DNA from: Thuidium tamariscinum
Lineage: Eukaryota; Streptophyta; Bryopsida; Hypnales; Thuidiaceae
Assembly: GCA_947034885.2 (NCBI GenBank)
Contig: OX344749.2
Span: 16,631,501-16,695,500, forward strand
Direction of reading: 5' to 3'
Length of the DNA stretch: 64,000 nt
Shown piece after piece: positions 6,224-61,558 of the stretch. A model generated the notes under the pieces. The model did not search any database. It was not told the origin of the DNA and saw nothing but the letters and a program-made list of their open reading frames with translations. Position 1 is the first letter of the stretch, and every line of letters begins with the position of its first letter. The translations under genes and the position numbers were made by a program.

Positions 6224-7164
6224 TTAACCCCTAAACCCCTAAACAACATTTTTTGAGATTATAGATTTTTTGGGCAGCTCACTACGGATGGAGTTTGTTT
6301 TTTTTTTCTTTGAAATTTTGATACAATGTGTGTCCGAGGAGTAGCTTTAAGGCCCGACAATTTTCATAACTTTTGACTATGTGGATAAAAAGTTATGGCA
6401 TGATATGTCACTTTGTTTGTTCGGCGGGCAGACCGGGCAGCTGAAAAAACTTTTTTTTGAAAAGTGAAATTTCAAATTGGTTCTTTAGGTTTATACAGAC
6501 ATGTGAAGCTTTGAATCAATCCATTCCGATCAATGAGTCAAAAGTTATGAAGATTTTGAGTTTGGGGTAGTTTGCGGCTAGTTACAGAATCTCCACAGCA
6601 CAAAAAAAGTTTGAAATTCTTCATTTAATTCAATTTTTCATATTTTTGGAAAAAAATAAAAACAAAAGGTGTAGATTGTTTATTTCAACATTTTAACCAT
6701 TGGGATTGAAAATTTTCAATTCCATGAATAAAATGTTCACAATTTAATACTTTGGCTCATTTTTTACTTCTTTCTACTTACTTATTTTTTCCTATATGTT
6801 GTACAATTCCAAATGGTTTGAAATTTTTTGAGAATGTATCCAACTTGCATTGAAGTATGAATTCAAAGAGTAACCACCATTTTGAAATTTTTTTCACACA
6901 AATGTGACCTTGTGAAGTGCAGCTGCCCGGATTTTCGCAGGGATAAAAAAACAGTTTTTGTCAATTCAAATGCTTATATCTTCCAATCTACATGGTGAAA
7001 ATTTCTGAAATTTTTTCCACATGTTTACAAACCACCTTACTACAAGATCCTACGGTTACATGAGTCAAAAATGTATTTTTAAAATAAAATTGCTCTTGTA
7101 TTAGAAATGGCAGTTTTGGAGCATTTTTTTTTGGTGAAAACGCTGTTAGGGGTTTAGGGGTTAA
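6224..7164. mobile_element. TTAA-flanked transposon, copy E1
   Basis: Both ends carry TTAA (6224-6227 and 7161-7164), followed inward by the inverted terminus CCCCTAAACCCCTAA. The interior has landmarks shared with other copies: GGGCAGCTCACTACG-like near 6275, GTCCGAGGAGTAGCTTTA near 6332, and AAAAGTTATGGCATGATATG near 6389. It has no convincing frame. TTAA flanks plus a CCC-initial terminus match piggyBac-type elements. The doubled CCCCTAAA also resembles plant telomere repeats, so the terminus could be mistaken for an interstitial telomere. Confidence 0.7.
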
Positions 7165-7779
7165 ACTATAACTTTGACACTTCAACTTTGCTTCATTTGA
7201 ACAATCCATAAACTTTGCTCATTTGGTTGAGTATGTATGCTAGTGGAGATTAATCCTTGACTAAAGTAACTATAGCTAATTGTGGCTTGTTTCCAAAGCC
7301 AACCCCGACAACTTCTTGTCTAAAATGTTCAACTTCTATTTGTGAGGGCTTAGCCAAGATCAACTTTGGGAGCAAATATGGATCTAAAACTAATAAAGAA
7401 ACGTATGGAATTTTTTTGGAAATTAAACCTTATAGATTGTAGCAATGATGCTAGAGTATGAACTGGGAGCAATGAGCATTGAGCAACGAGCAACAAGCAA
7501 TGAAACTTGAATGCTCATTGCAAGAATGTTTTCTAAAAATAGACATGTTAGAGCAATAAATAGTATTGTCAAATCCAAAAATAATAATGTCAAAAATGAA
7601 AAATGAAAAAATGAAAAAAAATCTACAAAAAAATTATATTAAATAGTTGATATTATAATGAAAGGTTGCAAGAATGAACATCCATTCATTCATGTGTGAA
7701 TGAACTTCATCCATATCATCCATCCATCATCCATCATTCATCATTCAATTTTTAAATTGTTAAAATTTTTGCAACTCAT

Positions 7780-8990
7780 TATAAGCTTTTTTGAAACCAA
7801 GGAGGCTTTAAACCATCTGTGCTCTTTAATATTGTCTCCCTAAAAGCCTCTTTGGAATCCAAAAAAGGCTTTTCACTTTAAAGAGCCCTTTTTTGGAGCC
7901 AAAGGGCTCTTCTAATATAGACTTTTTAGAACCTAAAGAAAGCTCCTTAGATTTGAGGAGCTTTTCTTTAACCCATCAAGGACCAGTCGACCACTTTTGG
8001 GTTGATTTGAGGACTTTTTGTCTCCTATAATTTGCAGAACATTTGATCTCAAAAAACTTAGAGAAGAACCCATTTAGAGTGTCTTTATGCGCATCTAACA
8101 AAACCAATTTCAAGAGAATGTGTGCAAAAATGAGTGAGTTGTGCTTGGCCAAACTTGAAATGGTCCAACCTTTCATATTGAAATTTTCAATGAAAAATGC
8201 ATATTTTATAGAAAGGAAAATTATGTGTATGTTTGAAATAATAAATTGAAAGGTTTTGGTCAATTTTCAGACAATATATTCAAATCTATATCCAATTGTA
8301 GCAAACCCTAATTATAACCAGTGCCAAAGGGTGTTTATGACACAGCAATGTTTGAAGAGTAATTACAAAGACGTGAATTGTTGGATCGCTTTTGTTTTTT
8401 GTGTGGTTCAAGGACTTAATCCATGGAACTCATTTTTTCAATCCGATCTAGGATTACATCTTTTAAAAAGGCAAAAAATTGCACTTTTTGAGAATTGTGT
8501 TCAAAAACTACATCCGCCCCCTAAATCAACCACGGTCCTTAATGGGTTAATGCCAAAAGGTGTTTTTTAATAAGGCTTTTTGAATTCATGAAAGGCTCCT
8601 TGAATCCAAGGAGCATTTTTTGGTGCCAAAAAGGGCTTTCATTGAAACCACTTTGGAACTAAAAGAAGGATACTTCAAATCAATGATCCCTTCATTTGTG
8701 CCAAAAAGCTCATTAAGAGCATCCTTGAATCAAAGAGGCCTTAAAACTATCATTATTTTTAAATATTGTATCCCTATAAGCCTCCTCGAAACCCAAGGAA
8801 GGCTCCTTTGAATCCAAAGAAGGCTCGTTAGATCCGAGGAGCTTTTTTTGGTGCCCAAATCTTCTTGCAACGAAGGCTCTTTTAAACCCAAGGAAGAGTC
8901 TTCGGATCCAAAGGAGCCTTTTGTTGATGCCAAAAAGTTCTTTCAATGAAGGCTCTTTATAGCCTAAAGAATAATCTACATCCATAGTTC
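7780..8990. repeat. Degenerate tandem repeats of about 60 bp, split by a TTAA insertion
   Basis: Units of the type AAGGCTC..GAATCCAAGGAGC..TTTTTGGTGCCAAAA recur at 7795-7967 and 8551-8990. A minus-strand frame crossing them at 8713-8985 has repeated KEPSL-like peptides, but this follows from the DNA repeat and is not evidence of a gene. The array is interrupted at 7968-8550 by a separate insertion. Confidence 0.6.
7968..8550. mobile_element. TTAA-flanked transposon, copy E2, nested in tandem repeats
   Basis: TTAA lies at 7968-7971 and 8547-8550. The inverted termini are CCCATCAAGGACC and CCCATTAAGGACC. Removing the insert and one TTAA rejoins GGAGCTTTTCT to TGCCAAAAGG, which matches the neighbouring repeat unit (GGAGCTTTTTTTGG-TGCC). 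This gives an empty site inside the same array. Frames at 8043-8249 and 8256-8570 lie within the insert and are not recognised. Confidence 0.75.
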
Positions 8991-9211: not shown

Positions 9212-12200
9212 AGAGAATTTTTTTTAGCCCTTCTATTAAAGTGTATAAATTTTAATGCCTCTTGGACTAATACAATTTTTGCATTGCACGTTTTTTGGCT
9301 CATACTATGTTTGGCATATTATGTCTTCCATTGTGATATCTTGTAAGTTATAAACTTGCCAAATTTGAGTAGAGAAGGGATTTTGCACAAAGTGCTACAA
9401 TCCCACAATTGTCTATCTCACATCAACTACACGTTCCTTATCTACTCACAACTCTTTAGGTATGCATGGTTTTCAAAGATTAGAATAACATCACATCCAT
9501 GAATTTTTTTGTAGATAACCATATTCTAATACTTTATTTATCACATTCAATTTTTCTAGAGAATATTCCTTATTTCTACTTCTAGTTTTGATGTTGTATT
9601 TTTTTTTACCTTCTACTAAATAGTATTTAATAATAAATAAAGCACACCTTACTACCCTCAACTAGTTAAATCCTTGTGGATATTATTTCTATATCAAATC
9701 AAATGTCAAAGGTGTAGATTGGGATACAAGATTGCTTGAAGTTTGGAATTGATCACAAGTTTATTCTATTTTGAGAGCTTCTATGAGACACAAAGTAAAA
9801 CACTACCTATTTGATTAGTTGTGACCTTACAAATCCAAATGTAAATCTACTTTGATTTGAAATCTTTTAAGGGATTTGAAGTCTTTTCTAATCTATTTTA
9901 TGATCAAAAGAAACAAATTAGAAAATAGAGCATGAAAATCAATATAGCTTTACCTTAAATTGAATTTTGACTTTTTAATTGGGTGAAAACAAAAAACACT
10001 AATACTATCATATCTAACTTATTGCAAAGCCAATTCAAACCCAAACATAATTTGGGAGCAAGGGATCATTGTATTTATACTCAAAGTGTGTGTTATACAA
10101 TTTCAAATGTAGTCCATATTTTTCGTAATTGAAAAAAATCATATATTATTTAATGTTATTTTTCTTATTTTATAGAGATTGGTTCTTTTGATAAATTTTA
10201 ATTTTGTAGAGTATCCAAAACAATAAATCTTGTTTGGAATTTAGAGAGAAAATTCTTCCACTAGGATTACATCTATTTGTTGAGAAATTTCTAAAGAGAA
10301 TAATATTTCTGGAGTATTCAAAAGAAAATGCAAGAAATACTTGTACTATTTTGCGTCACGCAATGTGGGCTTTTTGGATTTTTGGCGATAACTTTTGTAT
10401 TTTGACTCTAAATAATTCAAGATTTATAGAAAAGGTATTTATAACTATTGTACACCTTTTCCAATTTTTTTTCTCAAATTTCAAAAATAACTAGCTATCC
10501 AAAAACAGACCCCAACTTAATGTCTTACCAATTTGGAGGTTTTTAGTACTATCTAGCACCCAAAAAATATCGAATTTTGAGCTGAAATTTGGAGGAGATG
10601 GTCTTCCAATAGACTTGTAGCTAACGGCTAAAGGAACTTCTTAAATAATTATTTTTATGGGGTGTAGAAGTCTATAAAAAGAGCTTCTTTCTACTTGCAT
10701 TTTGAAACATGTAAAAAATGATTTTGGTGAGTTTTTTGGTGAATGGCCATCTCCATAAAGTTGTTGTAAATGGACTATTTTTATTTTTATTTTTTAAAAT
10801 TTTCCTGTTTGTTCCTAATTAAAACATCAAAGTATATATTCTCTTGAGATTTGACACTTTTCTAGTTCTCTTACTTGGAGAATTTTTCTATGAATTCCTT
10901 TTGTGGTTACCTTCATCTTACTTGTGTATACAATAGCCACATTTTTTTTTAATTTAAAATTATTTTTCTAATTTTAAATTACTCCCCAAAAAATCATGAG
11001 AACACAAGAAAATCAACAAGTGTTTCTTGCAATCACCCTAAAATAGTGAGTTCCATTTAGAAATTTAGAGAGAAAGTTCTTTTCTAGAATTACATCTATT
11101 TGTTGAAGGATTTTAAGAAAACTAGTTTTCTTATCTTCCATATAGTTGCAAAAAAGGCTCTCTCGCATTTCTAGGCAATCAAGAAGATTTTTTGTAATTT
11201 AAATTATTTAAATCTCATCTCTATAAAGGTCATAGAAATAATCTATTTTTTTATTTTTTATTTTGAATGTTTTGACTATTATTAAACAATCTAAACTTCA
11301 AATCATTTTTTGCATGAAATTATAAGCATGTAAATTTTTGAAAATTTGACAATTTGCTACAAGTGTGCAATATAAAAGAAGATTAGTTCATAAGTTGATT
11401 TATTATAGGAAGAATGCAAGCTAATTATTGCAATAAGAAGATTAAAAAGGTTATGAATGGATTAGATAAGAAGGAAAGCAATTTGCCTTCATGCTATTTA
11501 GATTTGAATAGATGCCTTTACTTTTGGATATTATAAATGCAAATAATTTGTCATTTTTAACTCTTTTTTACTTTCTTGGTTAACTTTTGTAAGACAAATT
11601 GTTGTCTTTCTTTCTGTATACAACTATACATTGAACGCCTTCAATTTGTAAATCAATTCATCTTTTAAAAAGTTTGTTGTATTTTTAAGTGTTATAGTAA
11701 TTTATTTTAAATTAAATGAATGGGATTTTCTTGTGTCTAATTGACGTGTGACAAATTGATTGTGTTATAGGGCTAACTTCTAAAGGACCAAAGTCCCCTC
11801 ATGGCACACTTGAGATTTTTGATAGGCTTGTGCGACTTGAATTTTTTACATGATTTTTTGAAATTTTTTTTGAAGATAGGAAATTAGACTAGTTTTGTGA
11901 AAATATAATTCTTTTGAAATTTCAATTGGTGACTAAGAGCAAAAATTATGCCATTCTAAGTCTTAAAAGCAGTTTGCCGGATAGAACCAAAGAAATAGAA
12001 AAATAATCATTTTTAAAATTTTAGTTTTTTTTCTCAGAGATTATATTTTTTTCTACATCTAAAGTTTTGATTCATTCTATTTGAATTAATAATGATAAAA
12101 TTTTGGACAAACTTGTATTTTGGGCAATCTAGGCATCTTTTAAATAAAAACAACTTATTAAATTAATTTTTGCATGCAATTTTTAAAATTAAAAAATTTG

Positions 12201-12576
12201 ATAGGATTAAGTTGTTTTGTTTGATTTTAGACCTACTTCTACTTAAAAATTCTTTAATGAATAAAAACCAAGTATTTATTTATTTTTTAACTTTTGGATC
12301 GATTCTCAAATAAAATATTCAGTATTAAAAAAATTAATTTATAGTGCATGGTGCAAAAAATTCTACAAATGGAAATCAAAGTCATCTAAAATTGCACACC
12401 AAAGTTCAAAATTTTTTTTCCCAACTTTGTATTTTGATTTCTTCCAATTGGTACAGTCAAACTTCATTAAATTCTTACCACATGATCTAAGACAAGAAAA
12501 TTATAAGATTCTATAGTTAGATTCTAAATAAATAAATAGTTTTTTGGTTTCTATGGCAATTTTGAATGGTTTTTGA
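9212..12576. other. Long AT-rich intergenic block
   Basis: No gene is supported. A diverged direct repeat is present at about 10228-10300 and 11060-11130, sharing GAGAAA-TTCTT and TTACATCTATTTGTTGA. A lone degenerate TTAA-family-like end (CTAACTTCTAAAGGACCAAAG) occurs near 11770 with no visible partner. A CACTTGTTTCTTGCAATCAC-like terminus seen elsewhere in the window occurs at about 11018-11036. Confidence 0.5.
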
Positions 12577-12853
12577 CATTAGAAGGGATTTGAGGCCAAC
12601 AAGAGATTGCGAAAGCCTTATTTCCAGAATTGTTCCCGATATTGTCAAGTCAGCAGTTAATTAATTAATTAATTAATTAAAGTTGTTCCTGAAATGCAAA
12701 GAGAAGTCCAAAAAAAAATTCAAAAAAAATTCGATGACGTGGCACATTCTCAACTACGTTAGCAGAAGCTAGTTTTGCATTTCTGCGGCAAATTCCTACG
12801 TTCATTGCGTTGGGAACTCACAGTCTCCTGTTGGCCTCGAATCCCCTCTAATG
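12577..12853. mobile_element. MITE family E, copy 1
   Basis: The inverted termini are CATTAGAAGGGATTTGAGGCC and CATTAGAGGGGATTCGAGGCC. They enclose a core with GACGTGGCAC and a TGTCAAGTCAGCA block shared with copy 2. An (AATT)n microsatellite sits inside near 12656-12680. I could not decide the target duplication, because the ends are palindromic around TA. Confidence 0.7.
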
Positions 12854-13438: not shown

Positions 13439-14159
13439 TTAACCCTTAAAGGACAAACCTACAACCATAGCTTTCAAGTCTCATTGCCTATCATTCACTT
13501 TGTTGCTATGAATTTTGAACTAAATATGTATGGAAATTTATATATTTATTTTTCAAAGATAGAATAACATATCTTCTTTGCTTTATAAAAAATTTAAATT
13601 TTTGTGATTTTTTTGAGAGCTTTTGAAGAAAAAGTGAGAAAAATTACATCAAATAAAAAATTATTTCAAAAACTTGAAAATTTCACCATAGGTGTACATT
13701 ATTGTGACAAACATCATGGTGTAAACTCAATTTCCGTGTCATTCTATAATTAAAATACAATAGACATTGAAAATACATCCAAAGTGTACAATGCATTAAA
13801 ATATTCAATATTACAAACTTTTTCAAAATTCAAATTGGTGCAAAAACTAGAATAGATGACCTTCATTTTTTTAGTTGAACTGAAATTCAAAAAAGAGGAA
13901 TTTTAGATTTAGAACAAGGAGCAACAACTTTCCAAAATACACTAAAATAACATATTTTGCAATCTGTTTTTTTATTAACTTCTCATTCACATGAAGACAA
14001 ACACTAGAAAGACAATAAATTCAATTACTTACTCTTCATAATCCTCTATGAAAGGTCAACAAGCAAAAAATGGATGAAAAATTAATTGCAATTTCTCTCT
14101 ATGTCATCACATTCTCATCCAAAAGTGATGAATTGATATTGTCAATACTAAAGGATTAA
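13439..14159. mobile_element. TTAA-flanked transposon, copy E6, with paralogous empty site
   Basis: TTAA lies at 13439-13442 and 14156-14159. Inner termini are CCCTTAAAGG on the left and TCCTTTAGT (reverse complement) on the right. The paralogous repeat at 16292-16700 is uninterrupted at this point and carries one TTAA (16560-16563). Insertion into TTAA with duplication of TTAA is therefore supported by direct comparison within the window. No transposase is recognisable. Confidence 0.78.
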
Positions 14160-16291: not shown

Positions 16292-16700
16292 CAAGATAGC
16301 AAATTTGCACCCTATTCTACAACAAAATGTACGTATATTTTGGGCTTTCAACCATTTTTTATTGTTCCATTTTCCTCTTTCAATCACAAAATAGCTTCCT
16401 TTCAACCTATTATCAAAAAAATTCCATCTTCCACTATTAATTTCAAGATAGAGAAAGAAAGACTCCAATGAAATGGATTGGTTATGTAAATTTGTAAGGT
16501 TTCAATTAATCAAATGGAATTGTAATAAAATATGTTGAGCTTTATTTCTAATGCCTTTTTTAAAGATGGATGAATTTATAATCAACTTCAAACATGCATC
16601 TCTTATTTTACAACACCATTTTCATTAGAAATTAATATATTGTTCAAATGCTCTTAATATAAGAAAATCCTTGCCTAGAACAATTGGACAAGGGTTGCCG
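16292..16700. repeat. Dispersed repeat family F, copy 2, with intact TTAA site
   Basis: This copy is continuous across 16560-16563, where copy 1 at 13.2-14.5 kb carries a 721-bp TTAA-flanked insertion. It therefore serves as the natural empty site. Frames within it are not conserved between the copies and are not considered genes. Confidence 0.7.
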
Positions 16701-16925: not shown

Positions 16926-16928
<3 letters not shown>

Positions 16929-17481: not shown

Positions 17482-17953
17482 TTAACCCCTAAAGCCCTGA
17501 GGTGTATTTTTTGGCATTATAAATTTTTTGGGTAGCTCACTACGAATGGAGTTTTTATTTTTTTTTGCTGGAATTTTTACACAAGATGTGTCCGAGGAGT
17601 AGCTTTAGGGACCAACAATTTTTGTAACTTTTGACTTTGTGGTTAAAAAGTTATGGCATGATATGTTGTTTTTTTTACTTAGAGGGCAATCCAGGCAGCT
17701 GGAAAAACTTCTTTAAAAAAAAAAAATTTTCAAAATTTTTTTCAGCTGTCCGGGCTGCCCTCCAAGTAAAGAAAACAACATATCATGCCATAACTTTTTA
17801 ACCACAAAGTCAAAAGTTACGAAAATTGTTGGGCCTTAAAGCTACTCCTTGGACACATCTTGTGTAAAAATTTCAGCAAAAAAAAATAAAAACTCCATTC
17901 GTAGTGAGCTGCCCAAAATGCCAAAAAACACACCTCAAGGCTTTAGGGGTTAA
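17482..17953. mobile_element. TTAA-flanked palindromic transposon, copy E3
   Basis: TTAA lies at both ends (17482-17485 and 17950-17953). The whole 472 bp folds back on itself with arms of about 225 bp around an A-rich centre near 17720. The termini CCCCTAAAGCCCTGAGGTG and CCCCTAAAGCCTTGAGGTG are nearly identical. Each arm repeats the interior landmarks of copy E1, including TAGTGAGC, GTCC-AGGAGTAGCTTTA and AAAAGTTATGGCATGATATG. It looks like a foldback derivative of one half of that element. Confidence 0.8.
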
Positions 17954-18497
17954 AAAATAGCAATTTGGAAACTATGGAAAAAAATGGATGATAAAATCTG
18001 TACAATTTTTATCTGGAATTTAAAAAAAATAAAATCATACTCAATGCTTAGAAAATTGCTTCAATATGGGAATTGAAAGAAATTATAAGGTAAAACTCCA
18101 AAAGTATCCCAAATGGAGCATCTAAGGTCTAGAATTTCAGAGAGTTGAAACATCTTGAAATATTTTGCAATAAATTTTCCTTGAAAGACAAATGGAACTC
18201 ACATCTAACTCAAATCCATGTTTTTTGAAGTGTGGAATTAGTTATAAAAATTTTAGGTTGAAATGGCGTAGGGCTCTGAAATGGAGCACTACCTGAAATG
18301 TAAATAATTCGTTTGTTGCTGGAGGCTATGAATAAGCAATATGTACAAACAATGTACATTTAACAAGGTTCGAGCCAGCTCCTGCCTTAGATGGTGTCTA
18401 TTTTGGGTGATAACCGATCCAGATTATTCTAGAAGCCTCCCTTCTTCGGTACAGTATTGTGCCATGCGTACAGCAATAATTTGACACCCTACAATAA

Positions 18498-18733
18498 GAT
18501 CTGGGTGGATTGGCCCCCTCACTCGGCCTTACCATGTTTTACAGAGGTGCAATCAAAACAAAAAGCCCCCTAGTTTGGGCCGTGATCACCCCTACTTTCA
18601 ACACCCCCTATCTAATTAGCGGTCTCTGATCGCAAATATGAATTCAAAATTTGCAAAAAAAATTTGTGTGAAAAATAAAAAATTACAGCGTTTTACCCAA
18701 GTGGCCGAGCGAGGGGGTCAGTTCTCCCTGCCC
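18498..18733. mobile_element. MITE family I, copy 1 (236 bp, 8-bp target duplication)
   Basis: It is flanked by TACAATAA at 18490-18497 and 18734-18741. The subterminal inverted block is GGCCCCCTCACTCGGCC against GACCCCCTCGCTCGGCC. It is the same length as the copy at 24916-25151 and nearly identical to it, so both insertions are probably fairly recent. An 8-bp duplication suggests hAT-type mobilisation. Confidence 0.8.
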
Positions 18734-18741
18734 TACAATAA

Positions 18742-19695: not shown

Positions 19696-22600
19696 TTAGT
19701 ATCTTACATCATCACCAAATAGTTCTAAGATCATCCCATTCGTGGAAAGAAGCTTGTCCTTCTCCCGCTTAGGGGCCATCTCCATACTCGGGGTCCACAA
19801 ATCCGTGAGAACAGCTCCTTGTCGGACGTCTTCCTTGGGCGGGGATAACTGCCTACTTTGGACAGCCTCGCCGAGAACCGGAGTGACCTTCGGGTGGTCC
19901 CTGTCACCCCAATCAGGATGCTCCTCCCAGTGCCGTCCATCGCGCACTAAGGTGCCAGGCTCAAGGTGCTTGTCATCCCACATCAATACAACGTGTGAGT
20001 TGTCTGCATGCTCGGGTGCTAATCGATCCATAAGATCCTTAGCAGGACTTTCCGCCTCTTCTAGCCCCACGCCTAGCTGCGCTCTACTCGGGGCGACCTC
20101 CTCAGCAGGACTATAGTTGAACACTGGAAGAGGTCTATATTTCAGCATCCCTGCATCCATTGGAGTCTTCAATGGGAAGGCCTCCGGCACACCCTCACTT
20201 CCAGGATCATCCGCCCCATCGCTGAAGATATCATCCTCGTCATCCTCCTCCTCTTCGTCTTCGTCATCCGTGGACCCATACTCACTCTCCTCACTCTCAC
20301 CTGGCAATTCGCCCTCGTCATCATCACTGTCAATCTTACAGTCCCTTAATCTGTTCTGAAGAGCTCGTCGCCGCAACACAAACACATTGAAATAATAACT
20401 ATTAAGTTCCATCCTCGTTTTATGAGGTAAGGCATCCGGAAGGAAGTCCCAGAAGTTGCCGCTTTTGGAAGCCGGGTGTGACCGTGCAACCATTCGGAAC
20501 GTTCGTTCGTCTTCCCTGCTCCAATAATCTTCAGCAACACACTCCCCCATCTGATGAAACCCCATGTCCACAAAAGCTGGTCCCAGCTCGCTCCTAAGCC
20601 TCGCCCTTGCAGCGGCAATATGCACTCTCACACAATGTATGGAACCCGGCTCCTCACAATCACAAAAATCCGGTCTTCCTCTGCCTACTGGTCTAAATGA
20701 ACTATCAATTGCCCCTGCTTGAGGATATACTGTTACACCAAGCAACCTTTCGTCGTTCTCGTCATCATCGCTTCTAGTAGGACCCTCTCCGGCGGAATTC
20801 TCCAGGGTGGTATCACTGCCTCGGTGCACACTGTCCCGAGGAACCCACTCGGGAATATCAGCCTGAAACTCTGGACCTGTGGGTATCCTTTTTCGTTGTT
20901 GATTGTAGCGAGAAAAGGCCGAATCGTTGTAATTGTTAACTGTGTGTCTACCTGAGCGCTGTCCAGGATAAGCAGCCCCTGCTATTCCCCAGTAGGAACT
21001 GTCTAGGTGTTGGGACTGGGGTCCTGGTGGAGGTTGAAATCCAAAAGAGACCAGTCTTTCTCGAGAGGCACGGAGTTTTTCAAGGGTCTGGGCGTCTGGT
21101 CGGCCTGTATCGTCGTAATGCAGGGAAGGCACTTGTTTCCCCTGCAATGAAGAAACAGCACGATAGTAAGTACATCGCCTCTTGATAAGGCCACATTGCA
21201 GTACAAATAGGGAATCTTAGAGAGCATGAATTTAAAACAAAACTGAGGATGGATGAATTTAAACAACACGAGAAGGAACACAAATTTAAGGAAAATCAGT
21301 GCTATCACATGGCATCACAAAAAATAAAAGTTTTTTTCTTAAGCATGACTCATGTTCTCCCCTCTCCTTACAACAAATGGCACAAGAAGATAGAGATACT
21401 AAGATCATTATAAACGTATCCCGTCTCCTATCACGACCCTCATGAGATCCCTGTTGTTACCAGCAGCAACTCATCTTTTCATGAACTTGACTGGCATTCT
21501 TTAAGCTATATACTATCCTTTCCATACTGGTCTACAACCTCCCAATTCGAAAATGCATAAGAAATCCCTACATAGTGATAAAGATTTGATGTATACCGAT
21601 CTCCCCCAAATCACATTCCTACATATGTTAAAGTGATGCAAACAGCAACCTCACCAAAACCAATATCAGTATCAATAAGAAACGAAAAGGAATGTGACAC
21701 TGACCCGATTGAAGCCATGACCACCGCGACCAGGCACCTTCCAAAGAACAGACCGCACATTCTCAGTCAACATTCGGCATTGGCTCGCCCAAACATCATC
21801 TTGCCCTGAAATCCCTTCAATTGCAGAATCGTCACCAGGACACACAGCAACCCGCCTAATCCACTCCATCATGCCCCGCAGCGCCTCCCGCTGCTGCTTC
21901 ACATTCTCCACCCTAATTCCTTCATACCAATTCGAACTCCCATCCAAGTCTTCGTCCAATCCCCGAGCTCCCTCATCTCTACAACTAGGGTTTTCATCCA
22001 GACGCTCCAACGAAGCATCCGTCGTCACCCAATCCTCACTAGTGAGAGATTGTCGACATTGGAGGTGATCGTGATCCCTCTCTCGCAAATCCCCAATCAC
22101 GTCCTCATCTGGCATTGCCCCAGCTGCCCCGGCTTTGCAAATATCAGTGTCCCCATTCTGTGAATGCTTTGCCAGCTCGGAGCTACTAGCCTCTAACCTT
22201 GCACTGACCTCATTGCTGTGTTGATCTTCAAGCTCCAGAGCTTTGAGATACTTGACATACACAAGCTTCAAACCAGGACCACAACGAGCCCCAAATCCTA
22301 ATGCCTCCGAGACTGAACTCCAGAGCCTAGCTTCCGTGACTTTGCTGAAGCCACCCAAGGTGAGTACACGAGAATATAAAGCCGCGAGATCCACCGCCTT
22401 ATTACCTATTTTCACAGGCAATGGCCGTGTACACTTCCGCCTGCTAGCTTCCAAATGCCTGCTCACTCGGTCCATGAAGTCACTGCTACTACTGCTACCA
22501 AGAGCTTGGTTTTCACCCGGAAGCTCCTCTGTATCATGATAAAGCTTAAGACGCTTCTCACTTACCCCAGAGACGCCTTCCTCCTCCTGGTTGTCGCCAC

Positions 22601-24336: not shown

Positions 24337-25578
24337 GTACAATGGGGTACCATTCAAAATGGCATTTTTGAATTCACAATGAAAGAAATTTTAGTGTTGC
24401 CTACTTTGATAGCCTCTCGAGAGTTGAAAAACTAGTATTTTATCATGAATTTCTTTTTACAAAATCATCTCTAAGCTAATAACATTTGTACCAAATTTCA
24501 AGGCCAAAATATTTGCACAAAAAAAGATAATAAAAAATCTACCAACATGTCTAGCTATGAAAAAAATTTCACTACTTTCAACTTTGACATCCTTTCAAGG
24601 ATTGAATTTTTTTTCTTGCCATGACAATTTTTGTGTGAAATAAACTCTATGTTTTTAATATGTATGAAAAATTTCATGGTCAATAGATTAACACAAAAAA
24701 GATATTCAAGATCTACCAACACAAGTCTTTTTGAGAAAAATTTCACAATTGCCAACTTTGACACCCTCCCAAGGGCTAAAAACTAATTATTTACCAATAC
24801 GGTTTTTTTCATGAGATCAACTCTATGTTGATAATATGCATGCTAAATTTCAAGTTCAAAAAACTTACCTACAATTTTTTTAGAATATGTGTAGTTGTGA
24901 GGATGAGTTTTTGAGGATCTGGGTGGATTGGCCCCCTCGCTCGGCCTTACCATGTTTTACCAGAGGTGCAATCAAAACAAAAAGCCCCCTAGTTTGGGCC
25001 ATGATCACCCCTAATTTCATCATCCCCTAGCTAATTTGCGGTCTCTGATAGCAAATATGAATTCAAAATTTGCAAAAAGAAATTTGTGTGAAAAAAAAAA
25101 TTACAGCGTTTTACTCAAGTGGCCGAGCGAGGGGGTCAGTTCTCCCTACCCTTTTTGAGCCCTTGGTATATTAGTGTCATTTTGTGGGTCAAAGTTTGAC
25201 ACGGATGTAAAAAATTATACCTATGAAAATTTGAAAATTTGAAAATTTTCATATATATTAAAAACATAGAGGTTATTTCATGCCAAAAATTTCATGGCAA
25301 GAAAATAAAAATTCAATCCTTGAAAGGATGTCAAAGTTGAAAGTAGTGAAATTTTTTTCACAACTAGACGTGTTGGTAGATTTTAAATATCTTTTCTTGT
25401 GCAAGTCTCTTGGCCTTGAAATTTTGCACAATTGTTATTAACTTAGAGATGATTTTGTAAGAAATAATTCATAGTAAAATACTAGTTTTTTAGCTCTTGA
25501 GAGGTTGTCAAAGTTGGCAACACTAAAATTTCTTTCACTATGAACTCAAAAACAACATTTTGATTGTTACCTCACTAT
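24337..25578. mobile_element. Long foldback element, family C copy 1
   Basis: The arms are inverted copies of each other: GTACAATGGGGTACCATTC at the left pairs with a degenerate GTTACCTCACTATA at the right, and TCTACCAACATG near 24538 pairs with CGTGTTGGTAGA near 25369. No coding capacity is visible. A 236-bp MITE is nested near the middle. A better-preserved copy lies at 31086-32488. Confidence 0.65.
24916..25151. mobile_element. MITE family I, copy 2 (236 bp), nested in a foldback element
   Basis: It is flanked by TTTTTGAG at 24908-24915 and 25152-25159, a perfect 8-bp duplication. Rejoining at one TTTTTGAG gives GAGTTTTTGAGCCCTT, which matches the uninterrupted family C copy near 31663-31680. 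This confirms the insertion boundaries. Confidence 0.85.
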
Positions 25579-28249
25579 ATATAAAATAAAAATTAACTTC
25601 TAATTGCATTGTTTTTATTTTTAGTTTCAATATTGAATATAAATGTAATTCTTCTAATATTTATAAATTCTTTTATAGATGTCAATCAATGGTGTATAAC
25701 TATCAAATATTTTGACTTATAACATTGGATAAGTGCCATTTCAAAATGTATTTTACAAATAACAAGATTCTAAATATTTGACTTGGCCTTAACTTTGTCA
25801 TCACTATCTCATGTAATGATGCAACAAGCCTTGCCCAACCTTGCAATGTCTCCTTCTAAAAAAATAGGAGTCATCAGTTAAATTTGAAAAAATAATGATT
25901 GATTCCCCTCCGCTATCCAAATTTAGATAAAAAAAATACAAATTTAGAATACAAATACAAAGTGCAAATCTAGTTAAAGGATATAGATGAAGTTTTAGAC
26001 TATTGAAATATAATATAAAAATACATATACACATAAAGAATACATATATAGAATACATATGTATTCACAAGAAAAAAATGCAAATATATCCCTTATGGTT
26101 GGAAGTTCCCCTATTTTCCTAGGAATACAAATATAGGCAATTAGGGTGGATTTTATATGTTGAATTCATGAATTCATTTCATACAAGGGGTTTGGTAAAA
26201 AAACTTCTCAAAGGATTTACACCCAATTGGAAAATTATGTATATATGCCTTTTAGAAATTCTGTAAGAGGTTAAAAACCAATGGGACAATGCCTTGTATC
26301 CCCTTTATAGAAATCTTGTGACGTATTCTCTAAAATTGACAATTTATCACTATCCACTCAAAAGACAATATAGATGTCTATAGTAATTTTGTTTAAATTG
26401 AATATTGAATTTGGTTTGAAATTAATTCTAAAATATGTTGTAGACTCAAGGAAAAATCAAGAAGATGAAAAAATAAATAAAGCACCTTCATTAGTCAAAT
26501 TGACACCATTTCTAAACTCTTAACCAAACTAGTGAATCAAAAGTGCTTTATTTTTTTAATTTATTTACTTGACCCTATGTGTAAAACACCTCAAATTAGT
26601 CAAAGAACATTCTTTTTTGTTTTGAAAAGTATTTTGATCTTTCTCTTCTTCAACTTTGTTCTCAAAAGTCAATAAATAGATGTTAATTTTTTTATTCTTG
26701 ATTTATTCTTGCATCATCTTATGTAACCTTCTTTTTCATATGCATATCTTCTTTTGGACACATTTTCTACATATTCTAGAAATCTGTAAGAAGAGTTATT
26801 TTTATTTTTTGAATTTCTATCATCCTAAATTTTTTCCTTCAAACACATCTATTTGCTCATCTAAAATTTCCAATGTTATAAATGAATTCTTCCTTATTGA
26901 AGTACACTATATTTTTTTAAGAGATTCCTTAAGAAGTTTATTTATTGTTGGCTTAAATGACCACTTTGGTCTCTTCATTAATATTTAGTATTTAATATTT
27001 TGAATTTTATATATTGATTTTAGGTTTTATTATATTATTTTATAAAATATTGATCTTTCTTTTCTTAAATAGTATTTTCAATTTATAATGATGTATAAAC
27101 ATTTGTTCCCTAACCAAAATCATTTGCAAAAGATATCTTTTCAAAATTAAGGCACTTTAATCCTTGTAGGAAAAGTTGATTTCAAATAAAAAATTGATGT
27201 GCTTACAAAAAGTGCATTTCATACTATTTTGAAGTTTAGAGATTAAATAAATCAATAATATAATATTTAAAGCAATTTCAAATTGGTCTTTTGATGGTAA
27301 AGTTTGATCCCAAGTAAATAATACTATAAATTTTTTCATATGTGACATATGCGTATACTACAACTATAATAGAAGAATGCCAAAATGCATAATTTATATC
27401 CACCTCATAAAACTTTCAGTTTCTAATAATTTCTAAATCCAACATAATTTGAAGGACTTGTAATAAAATAAAAATTAGTGATAGATGAGAAAACCGATTG
27501 CAATATTTAGCAAATCTTGCAATCAAATAAGATCCCTTGGACCTTACATAATTGGATCAATACCATTGTGGTGAAAACATTGATAATGATTAGTGACAAT
27601 CAAATAAATTATGCGCATAAAGAAAACAAAATCTAATCAATGTCACAATTGAAAAATTGTATTTAAAAGTTTGTATTACGTGTGTTACATAAAAACCAAT
27701 GGCATGTCCAAAATGTTATTTAGAACATCATAACTCAATATAAAGAACCTAATTTCGTTACTACATTAGTATACTTAATGGCTTGTAGGTTCTACTAGCA
27801 TTCAATATTATATTAATTATGAGCCTTACATTGATTCAATATAAGTAAGTAAAGGTGTAATTTCATTAGCATTCAATTATAACTGATTTTTATAAGAATG
27901 CTTTAAAATCAAAACAAGGTTGTATTTTGCATTATTTAAATCTATTATTAATATTAAAGAGTTAAAAGGCCTAAATTACTAAAATATTGATAAATAAATA
28001 ATTTAAGAAAATCTACTATGTTACTTCATTAATTATAAAATACTTCTTGAAAGAAGAATTGATAATACTTAAGAAAATGAAAGATTATGTGAAAAATTGA
28101 TTAATATACAAATGTATCTATACAATTGAAAATACTAATCTATTAGTCTTCTATTCTAATTCAACAAGTACTAAACATTATGTCTTGAGTACAAGTAGCC
28201 TTTCAAATCAATAACAACGATTCAAATCAATAATAACCTCTATGTAAGA
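25579..28249. other. AT-rich intergenic block
   Basis: No gene is supported. Translated frames are Phe/Ile/Lys-rich chance products. A loose hairpin lies at about 26470-26570 (AAATAAATAAAGCAC against GTGCTTTATTT). Confidence 0.5.
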
Positions 28250-28530
28250 TGCTTTCAAAAGGAAGGACCATATTGTGTTTCTTTGGCAATATAGCAATTT
28301 AGGACAATTCATTACAAATGGAGTTTTTATTTATTTTTCTTTGAAATCTCCACACAATATGTGCGAAGGAATAGTTGTAAGGCTCTAAGGCCCAACAATT
28401 TTCATAACTTTTGATTACATGATTAAAAAGTCATTGCATGACAAGTGATTTTCTTTCATTTTTGGGCAACTTGGGTTGCTCTAAGAACTTTTTTAACCCT
28501 TAAAGGGCCAACCTGCTAAATTTGGCAATA

Positions 28531-28856
28531 AGGGAGGAGGCTCGAAAACCGCTCAGGCTCGAAAACCGCTCACCTTCTTAAATGTATATTTCTGGTACAT
28601 GATGCTTTTTGATCTTTACAGTAATGTACAAACAGTGAACATTTGAGGGGGTGGGCGGTTTTGGAGCCCTATGCCATATTGACTTCAGAAATTCATAACT
28701 AATTCTACAGAGCTCCAAAAATTATGAAACGACTTGGGTTAGATGCCTATTCAAGCTGTCTTTCAAGAAAAATTCACTGGAAAATACTTCAAGATGTTTG
28801 ACCTGCCCAAAATTCTGTTCCAGCCCTTAGATGGTCGGTTTATGGACCTCCTCCCT
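28531..28856. mobile_element. TA-flanked MITE family B, copy 1
   Basis: Inverted ends AGGGAGGAGG and CCTCCTCCCT are flanked by TA (28529-28530 and 28857-28858). The interior shares ATGTACAAACAGTG, CATAACTAATTCTAC and ATGGACCTCC with other copies. A TA target is the hallmark of Tc1/mariner (Stowaway-like) elements. Confidence 0.75.
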
Positions 28857-29638
28857 TATAGCGAGCAACATAGCAATTTTGGGAAGGTATGTGTAAGTGG
28901 AGATTTCTATATTTGACACCTAGATTTTAATAGAACATGGGGAAGAGTAATATCTTTCATGTGTACTAAAAATCAAGACATTTGGAAAGATAAGTCAAAA
29001 GTTATGGTCTAAATAAATATGTTTTTTTTTGTTGTAAATAGGTACTTTGGGCAGATTTGAAAAAACACTTTGTTCAAAAACAAAAACTTGAAATTGATTT
29101 CCTTCATTTATGTTTGTGTGGAAAGCTTTGAATCATTTCATATTGATTAATGAGTCTAAATTTATGAGGAGTTTTGTTTATGAGTAGTTATGGATTCTCT
29201 ATTCTAAAATAAACTTTGAAGTCCTTTATTTTATTCAATTTTCAAATAAACATTTTTTTCAAATTTTCAAATAAAATTGTTACTACAATTGTTTATTCAA
29301 ATTTTTGTACATTTGTTTATTGAATCATTATTACTACTATTGTTTATTACTACATTACAACTATTGGATTGGCATTTTTCAATTCCTTAAAGAAATTCTT
29401 AACAATTTTGTATTTTAAATCATTTGCTACTACCTTTTACTTACTATTTTTTTCCTATATATTGTACAATTCCAAATAATTTGAAATTTTTTAGACAAGT
29501 AACCTACTTAGCTTCAATAATGAATCCAAAGAAGCACAACCATTTTGAACCATTTTTCATATGATTGTTGTTTGCTGAAGAGCAGCTACCATGTTTTTTA
29601 CAGGGTGAAAAAAATTATTTTTGAGCATTCAAACACTA

Positions 29639-29970
29639 AGGGAGGAAGAAGCTCAAAAACCAATTAGGCACTACAACCGCCCAACTTCTCAAAAACTATA
29701 CATTGTTTATACATGTTGTTTTTTCATCTTTACAAGAATGTACAAACAGTGTACTTGTGAGGGGGTAGGTGGTTTTAGAGCCTTATGTCATTTTGACTTC
29801 AAAAAGTCATAATATATTACACAAAGCTCCAAAAAATATGAAATGACTTGGATTAAATGCCAATTCTACTTGTTTATGAAGAGAAATTCATTGGAGAATA
29901 ATTCAAGAAGTTTTACCTCCCCAAAATTTAGTTTCAACTTTTAGATGGGCACTTTATGGACCTCCTTCCT
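29639..29970. mobile_element. TA-flanked MITE family B, copy 2, nested in an E1 relative
   Basis: Ends AGGGAGGAAG and CCTCCTTCCT are flanked by TA at 29637-29638 and 29971-29972. The host sequence reads ATTCAAACAC-TA-CATCTTGCAAAATACATGG after removal. This aligns with element E1 at 6964-6993, which lacks the insert and so provides an empty site. Confidence 0.78.
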
Positions 29971-30353
29971 TACATCTTGCAAAATACATGGTGAAAACTC
30001 TGAAATTTTTTCCACATGTTCTCAAACCAATTTATTATAATCTTGATCTTATAATTACAAATTTCAAAAAAAGCTTAAAAAAAAATTTGGTATTGGTACT
30101 AGAAATGGAAGTTTTTGAGTGTTTTTGGTATAAACATAGTCAAGGAATTTAAGGAATTAAAAATCATTTTTGAAAGCTTCTTATATACTAGTTATTATTG
30201 ATTTTGATCTCATTAATACCTACTGTCAACTAAAACTTTTCATAACTTTTATGTCATTAACCATAATGGAATGATTCAAAGTTTCCCACATACATATAAT
30301 TCTAAAGAATCAATTTCAATATTTTATTTTTTCAAAAAGTGCCCATGGCATGG

Positions 30354-33075
30354 GATTAAAAGTAGGGTTAATTTCATTCATTGAAGGAAAAATTTATACT
30401 TTTGGTAGATCTACCATAGCATTGGTAATATGTACTTAGGGTGATTATTAAAAAAATGATAGAATAAAGCCTTCATTTTTGAATATAGTAGAAAAAAATA
30501 GGGTGCCGAAAGTTGGATCCCCTTAGGAGTGCTTAGTAGATTTAGTTTTGAGGGAGTAATGGAGGTGGTTGGAAAAGTTGTCCTAATTTTGAATTAAAAT
30601 GAAGCGTCCAAGTTTAATTTAATGTGGTAGAAAATTGGAAATCTAAGACTCCAAGTTGTGGTTTAGTATGGCATAGTAAGAACACTTAAAATCTACATCG
30701 ACCTCTTCTTGATGACACATGACGTACTAAATTGTTTGGAGACCTTGCAAATTCAAAGTTACTCGGACTCAGTTTGCCTTTCCAAGAGTTTGGGCAAGAA
30801 TGTTTGTTGTGGGCACATCCTCATGGCTTCTACATAAGGCCACTTCTTTGAATTTCCCCTCATGATTGTAGGTGTGCTAATTGGTGAAATTTTTTGGCAT
30901 GTCTTTCTTCTCTTGCTTTAGAGGCTTGTTGTAATTTAAACTATTTGTCTCATTGTTGTACCTTAGGATAGTAATGTAGCCCTAAACCATAGCTGCCAAT
31001 TTTGTTTTCAAAAGCAGTTTTCACATGCATATGAGCATGCGTAGACAATGGTTCTTCTTGAAGCAATTAAAAGGATCAACTTGTAGAGTGGGGTATCAAT
31101 CAAAATGTCGTTTTTGAATTCACAGTGAAAAAAATTTCAATATTTGCAACTTTGAAAGCCTCCCGAGAGCTCAAAAATTGGTATTTTACCACAAATTTTT
31201 TACTACAAAATCACCTTTAAGTTAATTATATGTATGCTAAATTTCAAGGCCAAAAGATTCACCAAAAAAAAGTTATTCAAAATCTACCAATATTGGTAGC
31301 TGTGGAAATTGTTTCACTGCTGCCAACTTTGACAACCTCCCAAAGATTGAATTATTTTATTTTTGCAATGAAATTTTTGTCATGAAACAATATCTATGTT
31401 TTTAATATTTATAAAAAATTTCAAGGTTTAATAAAGTTTTTTTTAAGAAGATATTTGAAATCTTCCAAAAGGTGTAGTTTTGAGAAAATTTTCACAATTG
31501 CCAACTTTGACCCCCTCCCAAGGACTGAAAAATTGGTTTCTTACCATGAATGTTTTTTTGTGAAGTCATCTCTATGTTGATAAAATGTGCTCTAAATTTC
31601 AAGTTCAAATGAATTACCAAAAAAAAGATATACAAAATCTCCCAACATGTGTAGTTGTGAAGAGGAGTTTTTGAGCCCTTAGTATAGTGTTATTTTGTGA
31701 AGCAAAGTTTGACATGAATGTAAAAACTCGACCTAACAACTACACATGTTGAGAGATTTTAAATATCTTTTTTTGAGTAAGTGTTTTGAACTTGAAATTT
31801 GGAACATATATTATCAACATAAAGTTGATCTTATTCAAAAAAATTCATGTTAATTAGACAAATTTTCAGCCACTGGGAGGGTGTCAAAGTCGGCAATAGT
31901 GAAAATTTTCTCACAACTATACATGTTGGGAGATTTTGAATATCTTTTTTTTTGGTAATTCATTTGAACTTGAAATTTAGAGCACATTTTATCAACATAG
32001 AGATGACTTCACAAAAAAACATTCATGGTAAGAAACCAATTTTTCAGTCCTTGGGAGGGGGTCAAAGTTGGCAATTGTGAAAATTTTCTCAAAACTACAC
32101 CTTTTGGAAGATTTCAAATATCTTCTTAAAAAAAACTTTATTTACCTTGAAATTTTTTATAAATATTAAAAACATAGATATTGTTTCATGACAAAAATTT
32201 CATTCCAAAAAAAAAAAAATTCAATCTTTGGAAGGTTGTCAAAGTTGGTAGCAGTGAAACAATTTCTATAGCTACCATGCAATGTTGGTAGATTTTGAAT
32301 AACTTCTTTTTGGTGAATCTTTTGGCCTTGAAATTTGGAATACATATAATTAACTTAAAGTTGATTTTGTGGTAAAAATTTTGTGGTAAAATACCAATTT
32401 TTGAGCTCTCGGGAGGCTTTCAAAGTTGCTAGTACTGAAATTTTTCTCAGTGCGAATTCAAAAACGACATTCTGATTGGTACCCCACTGTACATTCTCGG
32501 TTATAGGATGACTTGGGTTCAATGTTAAGAACTTTTGTATGTAAACAAGGTTTTTAATATACAAGTTCTTTAAGTTTGAATGTGGTGTTTCTCCTTCAAC
32601 TTGATATTGTGATTTTTTTTTGTCTATTATGTATTTGAAAGTACTAGGCTATTTAGAAAAGGATTTCACAACACGGTTCTATGCTAGAATTGTGAGATTT
32701 ATTATGTTAGAGTTTCTTTGGGGGGCAATTGTATAATTAATGTGTATGTGTAGTTCTTGATCATGGCCCCTTGAATGGTAGTGCGTGTTGTATAATCTTG
32801 TATATATACTGCACTGGAATTCCAAGAGCACACGTGCTTGCTCTTGGAGTGTGTTCATGATCTTTGCAAAGTCCTATATTTGTAAAACATATAAAAAAAT
32901 GTGAAAAGTTAGTCCCTTTAAGAATTTACAAAAACATATAGGTGTTGAAAAATATACACAAGTAGCTCTTTTTCTATTTATAGGGAGGAAAAAAATTTGG
33001 AAGGAGATAAATCCCCCCTCCATTAAATATCCCATTATCCTACATGGCTATAAAACCATATATAGTATATCCCCC
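30354..33075 (+). mobile_element. Repeat family D, copy 1, split by a foldback element
   Basis: About 1.3 kb of this stretch is the reverse complement of 46775-48885, with long shared blocks such as TAATTTAATGTGGTAGAAAA, GACACATGACGTACTAAATTG and TGTTAGAGTTTCTTTGG. A TATA-like TTGTATATATACTGCA precedes a region ending in GATCTTTGCAAAG. This could be the promoter part of a retroelement terminal repeat, but I see no protein or primer site. A 1.4-kb family C element is inserted at 31086-32488. Confidence 0.65.
31086..32488. mobile_element. Long foldback element, family C copy 2, with GTA duplication
   Basis: The ends are GAGTGGGGTATCAATC and AGTGGGGTACCAATC (reverse complement), flanked by GTA at 31083-31085 and 32489-32491. 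The arms fold back over nearly the full 1.4 kb. Family D copy 2 has an uninterrupted site (AACACGTACATTC, reverse complement of 48115-48127). A 3-bp duplication fits CACTA- or PIF/Harbinger-type integration, but the termini match neither consensus well. Confidence 0.72.
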
Positions 33076-35849: not shown

Positions 35850-36620
35850 ATAAAATCTTCGAAGATACTATTCTTTATTGTTTATTCGATTCCCTCAATA
35901 GTTTAATGTTTAAATCAAATCAAATCTTCGAAGATACTATTCCTAATTGTTTATTCAATTCCTCCCAATAGTTTAATGTTTAATTCATATCAAATCAAAT
36001 CTTCAAAGATACTATTCCTAATTTTTTGTTCAATTCCTCCCATTATTTTAATCTTTAAATTGAATCAAATCAAATCAAATCTTCAAAGATACTAAGGTAG
36101 GAGGTCCTGAAATGGAGTGGGCATTAAGAATGGACCCTATAAATGGTGGTTGAATGGACTGGATGTGGTTACTAAATTGACCTCCGTAGTCATTGAATGA
36201 ATCAAGAAAAATATTATTCATTATTCTAAGAGCCAATCGTTTCCCTTGCTTTTCCCATTTTTCTTTGGAAGTTGTAGTGAACACTTTAAGCACCTAGGAT
36301 CATAAATAAGGACCTACGACACATCTCGTTTGAAAATTCATAACTAATTCAAAAGTTATCCAAAAAATGTAAAACAACTTGGGTTAAATGCCAATTCCTC
36401 TTGTCTTTCAATAAAAATTTACTGAAAAATATTTCAAGAACTTTCACCTACCTGAAATTCAAATTCAATGCTCAGATGGTCCATTTGAAGACCTTCTACC
36501 TTATTCCTAATTGTTTTATCAATTCCCCCTATTAGTTTAATGTTTAAATTAAATCTTTAAAGATATTATTCTTTAATTCTTTTATCATTTTTCCCTATTA
36601 GTTTAATGTTTAATTGTTAG
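35850..36620. repeat. Minisatellite of about 65-70 bp, interrupted by a MITE
   Basis: Units of the form AATCTTCAAAGATACTATTC..TTGTTTATTCAATTCC..TAGTTTAATGTTTAA recur at about 35865, 35925, 35995, 36065 and after 36503. The fourth unit is cut in GATAC|TA|TTCC by a TA-flanked insertion. Confidence 0.75.
36095..36501. mobile_element. TA-flanked MITE family B, copy 3, in a minisatellite
   Basis: Ends AGGTAGGAGGTC and GACCTTCTACCT are flanked by TA at 36093-36094 and 36502-36503. Adjacent minisatellite units read GATACTATTCCTAATTG without the insert, so the integration site and TA duplication are read directly. The right portion matches copies 1 and 2 (ATTCATAACTAATTC, GACTTGGGTTA-like). Confidence 0.85.
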
Positions 36621-50119: not shown

Positions 50120-51052
50120 TTAACCCCTAAAGGACCAAGCCCTGTTTTCTGCCCCAAAACACTAAAAACTGCCAATTCTATAGCAAAGAGTAAAAAAATA
50201 TTTTAATTAATTTTTTTCCACGTCTAACCGTAGGATCTTATACCTCACTAGTATAAGATAGTGTGGAAAAAAATTCAGAATTTTTGACCACACAGATTGC
50301 AAGATACTTGCATTTAAAGTGGGAAAAACAAGTTTTTCAACACATTGCGGGACTGGATTTTTCGACTTTGAACATTTTTAACTTAAAAATTTTGCACTAA
50401 AGAGTTTTGAGCTTTAATTATTTATAGTGAAAAATTGAGTTGAGAATCTAGGAAAAAATAAATAAATTCAAAAAAACTTAATTTTCATTCTTAAAAAAAA
50501 TGTTAAGTAGAAGTAGGTATGAGATAGAAGGAAAATCTAAAATATTAATATCTTTTAAATGGAATTAAAATGCACTAATCCTAATGGTGAGATTGTTCTA
50601 GCAAGTAAACTAAACCATGAATTTTTTTTTTTTTTTAAAAATTGCAAAAATTGCATCCAGAAATGAATCCTACAAGTTATTTTTTTCAAGAAAATGCTCT
50701 AATTGCCCGAAAAACAAGAATGTCCATAACTTTCTCATAACAAATCCAAATAAAATGAATCAAAGCTTCCTAGATAGGCAAAAATATAATCTATAAGAAA
50801 AAAAATTCAAAAAAAAAAAAATTCAATTTTTTTCTTTGCTGCCCGAACTGCCCGCCGTCCCCTGTTTTGAGCTTATTTGGGCATAACTTTTGTTCCCGGG
50901 CACCGATTGAAAAAAAAAAAATTCCCATGAAGATATTCAATTTTTCTATCTCCAAAAAAAATTTCATAAAATTAGGACAAAAATTCAGCCCGTAGGTACC
51001 TGCCCGAAATTGCATTTGTCCCCCGAAGGGACAATGGTCCTTTAGGGGTTAA
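50120..51052. mobile_element. TTAA-flanked transposon, copy E4
   Basis: TTAA lies at 50120-50123 and 51049-51052, with termini CCCCTAAAGGACCA on both sides. The interior differs from E1. It has CTGCCCGAACTGCCCGCCG near 50840 and a second CTGCCCG near 51000. There is no transposase. Confidence 0.75.
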
Positions 51053-51454: not shown

Positions 51455-51670
51455 CACTAGAAGAAAATTGGCCAAAATTGCGTTTTTTTCAACATAACCG
51501 TGTCCAGTGGGTTATGTTGAAAACTACGTTGTAAACGCAGTGAAAATGCAGAAAATGCAATTTCTGTGTTTTTTTGCATTTTCACTACATTTACAACATA
51601 GTTTTCAACATAACCCATTGGATACGGTTATGTTGAAAAAAACACAATTTTGGCTAATTTTCTTTTAGTG
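51455..51670. mobile_element. CACTA-type MITE with 3-bp duplication
   Basis: It begins CACTAGAAGAAAATTGGCC and ends in the complement, GGCTAATTTTCTTTTAGTG. ATG flanks lie at 51452-51454 and 51671-51673. Almost the whole 216 bp is a hairpin with a repeated TTTTCAACATAACC motif. The terminus and 3-bp duplication are diagnostic for CACTA (CMC) elements. Confidence 0.88.
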
Positions 51671-51673
51671 ATG

Positions 51674-60640: not shown

Positions 60641-61074
60641 TTATATGGTCTAAATGTCACAAAATCAACCAAATCAATTGAATAATCTACAGGTTGTGGA
60701 TAGTACTTGCTTTGCACCCGCGTGACTGCTTGTGGAGAGCGGGGGAGTTGGATGACTTGGATCGTCGGTTAAAGCAGGCTGGTAAAGCGACCATTTAAGA
60801 GCTGATTGACTTTTCGGGGAAGCTAAGCTCCTTGAAACAATTTAAGGAAAATATAATTGGCATAATTGTAATTGGCATCTAATCTAAGTCATGTCATATT
60901 TTTGGGACTTTTGTGGAATTCCGTACAAATTTTTGAAGTTGAAACATAGTTGTCATTAGTGGTCATCTAAAGTGACCACCTCTTCAAATGTGCAGAATTG
61001 GTACATAAGAAAGAAAAATGTACCTTTGAGTCATGTTTGTTTTTAATATCGGGTTGGAGTTTGAGCCCCCCACT

Positions 61075-61558
61075 TTAACCCCTAAATGCCCAAGGTCTTT
61101 TCTAAGCTTTTAGGAATTTTTTAAGAATTGAACAAAAAACCAACATTTTAATAAGCTTTATCAATTTTTTTAAAAATGTAACCATACAAATTCAAACTAG
61201 ACGTGTTAAAGATTATACAAAAAAAGATTATAATGTTGATTGTCTCTTCACATGTCAAATCTAAAAATTTGGTCATCAAAAAAACATGAGGTTAAAGGGC
61301 CTAATATGCATAACCCAATCAATTTATGGCTTCTCAAAATCTACTCTACAATTTCTTTAAAATGAATTTCTAATATATTTTTTAATCCAAGGCTTAGTGT
61401 ATTTGAGGCTCATTTCCAAGAGCCCTCAACACCACAGAAAGTCAAGATTGCAATGGACATTCTTGCACAAAACCTTGAATAGAACAATCATAATAAATGA
61501 TTTTCAAGATGTTTTTTTATTTTATTTTTTAAGATGAGTCTGGACTCTTCGGGGTTAA
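61075..61558. mobile_element. TTAA-flanked transposon, copy E5
   Basis: TTAA lies at 61075-61078 and 61555-61558. Ends are CCCCTAAATGCCC and CCCCGAAGAGTCC, so only the first bases remain inverted. The family call rests on TTAA, the CCCC start and size. Confidence 0.5.

Follow-up and report, generated by a model that had tools for sequence, protein, structure and literature searches.

The window, the whole stretch of 64,000 bases that was analysed (C1:16631501-16695500), belongs to the 363.2-Mb genome of the moss Thuidium tamariscinum, which is represented by 11 large contigs. It possesses gene frames for MPLKIP, ELM2 and ARID, and RING proteins, and an Rfam search of the window gave 0 matches. 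Six insertions in the window had been described in an earlier note as bounded by TTAA and as carrying inverted ends of CCC type. TTAA was confirmed at both borders in all six. Comparison of the 16 bases inside the TTAA showed agreement between the two ends at 15 positions in 6224-7164 and in 17482-17953, 14 in 50120-51052, 12 in 7968-8550, 10 in 61075-61558 and 6 in 13439-14159. By ends alone, five of the six insertions are clear or fair and 13439-14159 is weak. The inverted ends proposed earlier were near-perfect in four insertions, and the weak 13439-14159 is nevertheless backed by an empty site. The window contains four pairs of the form TTAA-CCC..GGG-TTAA that span 100-3000 bp and differ at no more than 2 of the first 10 inner bases (0, 1, 0 and 0 mismatches). 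After first-order Markov shuffling of the window, repeated 60 times, such pairs averaged 0.017 per shuffle and never exceeded 1.

Two of the six insertions, 6224-7164 with TTAA-CCCCTAAACCCCTAAA ends and 50120-51052 with TTAA-CCCCTAAAGGACCA ends, were annotated as putative non-autonomous piggyBac elements of one family of ~930 bp. The first showed 89% identity to an element at locus L037 over 956 columns, and the second 96.7% identity over 936 columns to a copy at L003, on the same contig at a distance of ~16 Mb. 17482-17953 was found to be a hairpin derivative of the same family, with 192-nt arms (17526-17717 and 17727-17918, 91% complementary) and a 9-nt spacer. 7968-8550 represents a second family of putative non-autonomous piggyBac-type elements with CCCATCAAGGACC/CCCATTAAGGACC ends. 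61075-61558 belongs to the CCCCTAAATGCCC family; it is non-autonomous, TTAA-bounded and diverged at its right end (CCCCGAAGAG). 13439-14159 is a degraded TTAA-bounded insertion with CCCTTAAAGGAC at its left end and a weak right end.

Empty sites were searched by joining the flanks of 28 elements over one TTAA and comparing them with the fetched sequence set and the window. Junction-spanning matches were obtained for 3 of the 28 joined flanks (13439-14159, the L035 element and the L040 element), and the other 25 gave none in this small local sequence set. The joined flanks of 13439-14159 matched window positions 16500-16607 (+), a paralogous empty site, with 86% identity over 108 bases and one uninterrupted TTAA at the junction. 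TTAA was kept in both spanning matches of the L035 element. For the L040 element, which is an insertion nested in another element with TTAACCCCTAAATGCCC ends, 7 of 9 empty sites kept TTAA and 2 read TTAC, its own end being left out. When five joined window flanks were searched against the whole genome, 44 rows were listed, all of them at the 7968-8550 junction. They represent 40 places with 87-92% identity across the junction (the 40 scored of 184 candidates, known by coordinates only), the remaining 4 rows being weaker matches on the opposite strand of the same 40 places. The joined flanks of 6224, 17482, 50120 and 61075 were absent among the matches listed genome-wide, which is not evidence against those four.

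A library of 24 elements was compiled from the fetched loci and the window, all chosen for intact TTAACCC ends except 13439. Nineteen of the 24 formed one group, mostly of 927-952 bp, with pairs up to 96.7% identical. The earlier statement that the window copies share only short ends proved wrong for 6224, 17482 and 50120: 6224-7164 is 80% alike to 17482-17953 over 253 bp and 60% alike to 50120-51052 in an alignment of nearly full length. 61075-61558 was grouped with L032:258-884 and has relatives in L032 and L023. 7968-8550 was the lone member of its kind in the library, with a partial relative at L023:3570-3950. 13439 and L018 were joined by the score threshold alone, possibly through similar composition. 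No library element has an ATG frame longer than 74 aa.

Degraded relatives of the ~930-bp family were also present in the window. An old relative of 50120-51052 without intact ends lies at 11774-12590 (-), 62% identical over 935 columns and with CTAACTTCTAAAGGACCA near 11771. A partial copy of approximate extent occupies 28255-28496 (+), its positions 28279-28494 being 71% identical to columns 26-233 of 6224-7164. It is apparently interrupted at a TTAA by 28493-30160 (+), a degraded TTAA-bounded copy (TTAACCCTTAAAGGGCC ... GGAATTAA) with 62% identity to 6224-7164 over 767 columns, columns 750-936 falling at 29969-30154. This degraded copy holds inserted repeats of ~340 bp with AAGGGAGGAGG / CCTCCTCCCTT-like inverted ends at 28530-28862 and 29639-29970 (extents approximate), the relatives of which are situated at 18111-18369, 36313-36504 and 60783-61006. 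Among other repeats of the window, 24338-25579 and 31082-32493 are large, partly palindromic and ~66% alike, the second having arms of up to 214 nt that are 93-97% complementary. With 18498-18734, the first shares 94% identity over part of its length. A further hairpin at 51455-51670 has 101-nt arms, 91% complementary, and a 14-nt spacer.

Some long TTAA pairs on C1 were considered as autonomous elements and rejected. L022 is a ~930-bp copy split by an insert of ~4.1 kb, and L024 and L026 are each composed of several copies in a row. Gene capture was likewise rejected at L025, where a Sec1-family frame of 647 aa without stops (L025:3329-5269, 1.8e-73) sits between two copies of the ~930-bp family. 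Two other features were observed in the fetched loci. L028:2-3829 (+) carries a 1276-aa frame which by eye has the look of a Copia-type retrotransposon. At L041:1137-1301 (-), immediately beyond a ~930-bp element, part of the C-terminus of a piggyBac transposase survives (38% over 55 residues, E 0.001).

The ends are abundant throughout the genome. TTAACCCCTAAA was found at 19,746 places (9906 + 9840) and its reversed control at 111 (68 + 43), while the longer CCCCTAAAGGACCAA was found at 3671 (1848 + 1823) and its control at 1. TTAA-bounded ends are present on all eleven large contigs, and the number of short copies in the genome is about ten thousand. In 12 arbitrary places on C2-C11, library elements covered 9550 of 120,000 bases (8.0%), four places having none. 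In the window, a library without the window elements covered 5868 of 64,000 bases. When viral contigs were scanned for TTAACCCCTAAAGGRCC, a single stretch was hit; it lacked a paired end and was taken as chance.

The target was analyzed on the CCCCTAAAGGACCAA ends, which were not selected on TTAA. The genome-wide check of TTAA flanks proposed in the earlier note bore it out, an exact TTAA preceding 3265 of the 3671 ends (1646 + 1619; 88.9%). Among the 406 ends without an exact TTAA, 165 had single outer changes and the remaining 241 fell outside this class. The first T was replaced with TAA kept in 92 ends (2.5%), and the last A was replaced with TTA kept in 73 (2.0%). Duplication of TA or TAA would leave the outer T free, yet this T is rarely changed, and the constraint therefore extends over all of TTAA. 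In the window and the 12 sampled places, CCC[CT]TAAAGG was preceded by TTAA in 6/6 cases and the shorter CCCCTAAA in 11/24. A CCC start was found in 55 of the 56 ends of 28 listed elements, which were mostly selected on TTAACCC.

The transposase profile PF13843 detected at least 116 places in the same genome (those scored among 658 candidates of the first look), each of them above the cut-off, with a best E of 5.7e-80. They are distributed on ten of the eleven large contigs. None was detected in 14 control genomes, the names of which are not given, and the control therefore says nothing about plants in general. Eleven rows had open frames of 1023 aa, ten scoring 269.4 bits and one 269.6. Of the transposase loci, L042 was read letter by letter and L043 was also read, while the rest are known by score and coordinates.

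At L042, a 1023-aa frame is enclosed in an element of 5096 bp with the organization TTAA-CCCTGAAACGCC...GGCGTTTAGGGG-TTAA and the inverted ends TTAACCCTGAAACGCCGG / CCGGCGTTTAGGGGTTAA. PF13843 matched residues 533-932 of the frame (5.9e-79), and the best PDB matches were piggyBat (9c0f, 3.4e-27) and 6x67 'Transposase' (1.1e-22). Aspartates 676, 781 and 897 align with the region of the catalytic residues D268, D346 and D447 given for piggyBac in the available text of PMC7351741. By eye, a CIVC...CPGC...C pattern follows residue 994 of the L042 frame and a similar one is present in L043; these may correspond to the cysteine-rich domain at the piggyBac C-terminus. A 285-aa frame at L042:4361-5215 (-), in a different reading frame, overlaps the beginning of the transposase frame and is possibly an upstream exon. 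On C1 and C2, all six copies of the 1023-aa frame lie inside elements of exactly 5096 bp at equal offsets, so the longer TTAA-bounded member with a piggyBac transposase envisaged in the earlier note was recovered in at least six copies. The equal 5096-bp lengths along with the 96.7% copies suggest recent movement. The second locus, L043, has a 510-aa frame which is 33% identical to the L042 frame over 520 columns, and a single TTAA-CCC end (TTAACCCTTGAGCGCC) was found in the 5.5 kb fetched.

L042-type ends were found at 242 places genome-wide and at 0 in the control. Among the 100 listed (C1, C2 and part of C3), four short pairs of 732-735 bp bear both L042 ends, and 80 ends had no exact partner within 10 kb. 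L018:1259-1993, a 735-bp element from the random sample, has 38 bases in common with an L042 end at 87% identity. Judged by these shared ends, the 5096-bp coding element and its putative short followers are directly linked, within a subfamily which is GC-richer than that of the window.

On the basis of these results, the six insertions are very probably non-autonomous, MITE-like elements of the piggyBac superfamily in the moss nuclear genome, inserted at TTAA and moved by a piggyBac-type transposase. The strictness of TTAA and the elements with PF13843 transposase support the earlier proposal of such elements in a plant. Neither outcome that the earlier note had named as refuting it was observed: most ends do follow TTAA, and the autonomous element recovered encodes a piggyBac transposase. 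According to the available text of PMC7351741 and PMC3878927, piggyBac inserts at TTAA, its transposase frees the transposon ends with TTAA hairpins on them, and the complementary TTAA overhangs rejoin without a scar. Similarly, the longer elements elsewhere in the moss genome would make a DDD transposase of piggyBac type, which would bind the inverted ends starting with CCC and cut the copies out. The copies would then insert at TTAA with duplication of it, a step which fits the duplicated TTAA and the empty sites with single TTAA. We infer that such a transposase moved the copies of the window; excision would be seamless, and movement may still go on.

The position of the ~930-bp family is less direct. 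An autonomous partner for this AT-rich family with CCCCTAAAGGACC ends was not found in the two transposase loci read, and DNA comparison of L042 or L043 with the window elements gave no longer match than the ~12 outer bases common to the family and one L042 end, which begins TTAACCCCTAAA as in the window family. These 12 bases are suggestive, though not proof, of one transposase serving both families. An autonomous partner of the type predicted in the earlier note was recovered intact, while that of the ~930-bp family itself was not found; the latter may have been lost or may reside at a transposase locus other than these two. A related explanation treats the family as a relic: the lineage of piggyBac transposase that served it would be extinct here, with only GC-richer subfamilies such as L042 left intact. 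The many library pairs of only 75-90% identity fit such a relic, and so does the failure of the family to match L042 or L043. Several pairs are, however, 94-97% alike, among them 50120-51052 and L003 at 96.7%, and therefore some spread is recent; moreover, reading covered just two of the transposase loci, which number at least 116. We regard the relic explanation as possible but rather unlikely.

Descent of the window elements from another superfamily which duplicates TTAA, with the piggyBac genes of the genome unrelated to them, is highly improbable. Sola3 is such a superfamily. Kolobok likewise duplicates TTAA according to the available text of PMC9587614, and the absence of a partner of the main family in the two loci read would agree with either. 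The same text gives 5'-RR termini for Kolobok, whereas the window ends start with CCC, and a piggyBac element of the same genome, that of L042, has an end starting with TTAACCCCTAAA. PF13843 was the one transposase profile applied, so the judgement on Kolobok, Sola and Harbinger is drawn from the ends and the target.

Since piggyBac has been described chiefly in animals, fungi and protists, the piggyBac genes could in principle be a contaminant in the assembly and not moss DNA. This is still less credible, as the transposase places are on 10/11 large contigs and the TTAA-bounded ends on 11/11, and the elements lie among plant-type genes of the window. The same contig set also bears a moss-like LEAFY, of which a 75-residue piece best matches 4bhk (70/75 identical, 5.8e-48), which we take to be Physcomitrella LEAFY, with the Arabidopsis-type 2vy1 at 4.4e-35. 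Like 4bhk, the piece has D in KMRDYV, presumably the moss-typical residue. Least probable of all are Tourist-like (PIF/Harbinger, TAA/TTA) or Stowaway-like (Tc1/mariner, TA) MITEs with targets merely resembling TTAA, for although these are the usual plant MITE types (available text of PMC10004981) and TTAA includes TTA, TAA and TA, a 3-bp duplication disagrees with the equal constraint on the fourth base at both outer positions (92 and 73 of 3671 changed) and a 2-bp TA duplication with an outer T changed in only 92/3671.

The moss elements, placed by us in the piggyBac superfamily, are alike to the Trichoplusia ni type element and piggyBat in TTAA duplication, CCC ends, PF13843, three catalytic aspartates and inverted ends of 12-20 bp (available text of PMC7351741 and PMC10813416). 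Type piggyBac is ~2.5 kb (2472 bp, PMC10813416) with a protein of 594 aa (6x67 chain), while the moss L042 element is 5.1 kb with a 1023-aa frame and a long N-terminal region; the moss host and the very numerous non-autonomous copies are also unlike the type element. Animal piggyBac MITEs (such as the coral MITEs that duplicate TTAA, PMC2872659; cited as piggyBac MITEs in the available text of PMC9942856) are similarly short, non-coding and TTAA-bounded with CCC-type ends and a longer coding relative. Unlike them, the moss has a main family of uniform ~930 bp and several end types co-existing in one plant genome. In land plants, PiggyBac is named among the angiosperm MITE superfamilies (PMC10004981), and the C-fern repeat table gives 1230 PiggyBac hits, 0.00% of the assembly and ~100 bp per hit on average (PMC6890710). 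In the available text of these accounts it is a label or a small annotation count with no intact transposase element, whereas the moss has many intact frames and about ten thousand short copies. The PiggyBac label in land plants is thus not new and the machinery is known; the surprise is the host, the scale and the intact copies. The literature matches listed, which leave subscription papers and preprints outside their scope, included no account of piggyBac elements native to a moss, and absence in print is not claimed.

Beyond the six insertions, we lean, with reserve, towards a broader reading in which the moss hosts an extensive and varied piggyBac invasion with recent activity, comprising several autonomous subfamilies having intact transposases, each with a non-autonomous swarm, and a noticeable share of the genome. 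If true, land plants would be added to the natural range of active piggyBac, and native plant systems would become available. Annotation of plant MITEs, with its focus on duplications that are TA, TAA or long, can overlook TTAA elements, which here make up ~8% of the sampled DNA. The available accounts describe piggyBac as a scarless engineering tool, and plant work borrows the moth element; the many intact, apparently recent native moss copies would give plant-adapted transposases and ends. With these copies, piggyBac under plant silencing could also be studied in a natural setting, and the question of how piggyBac reached land plants could be approached.
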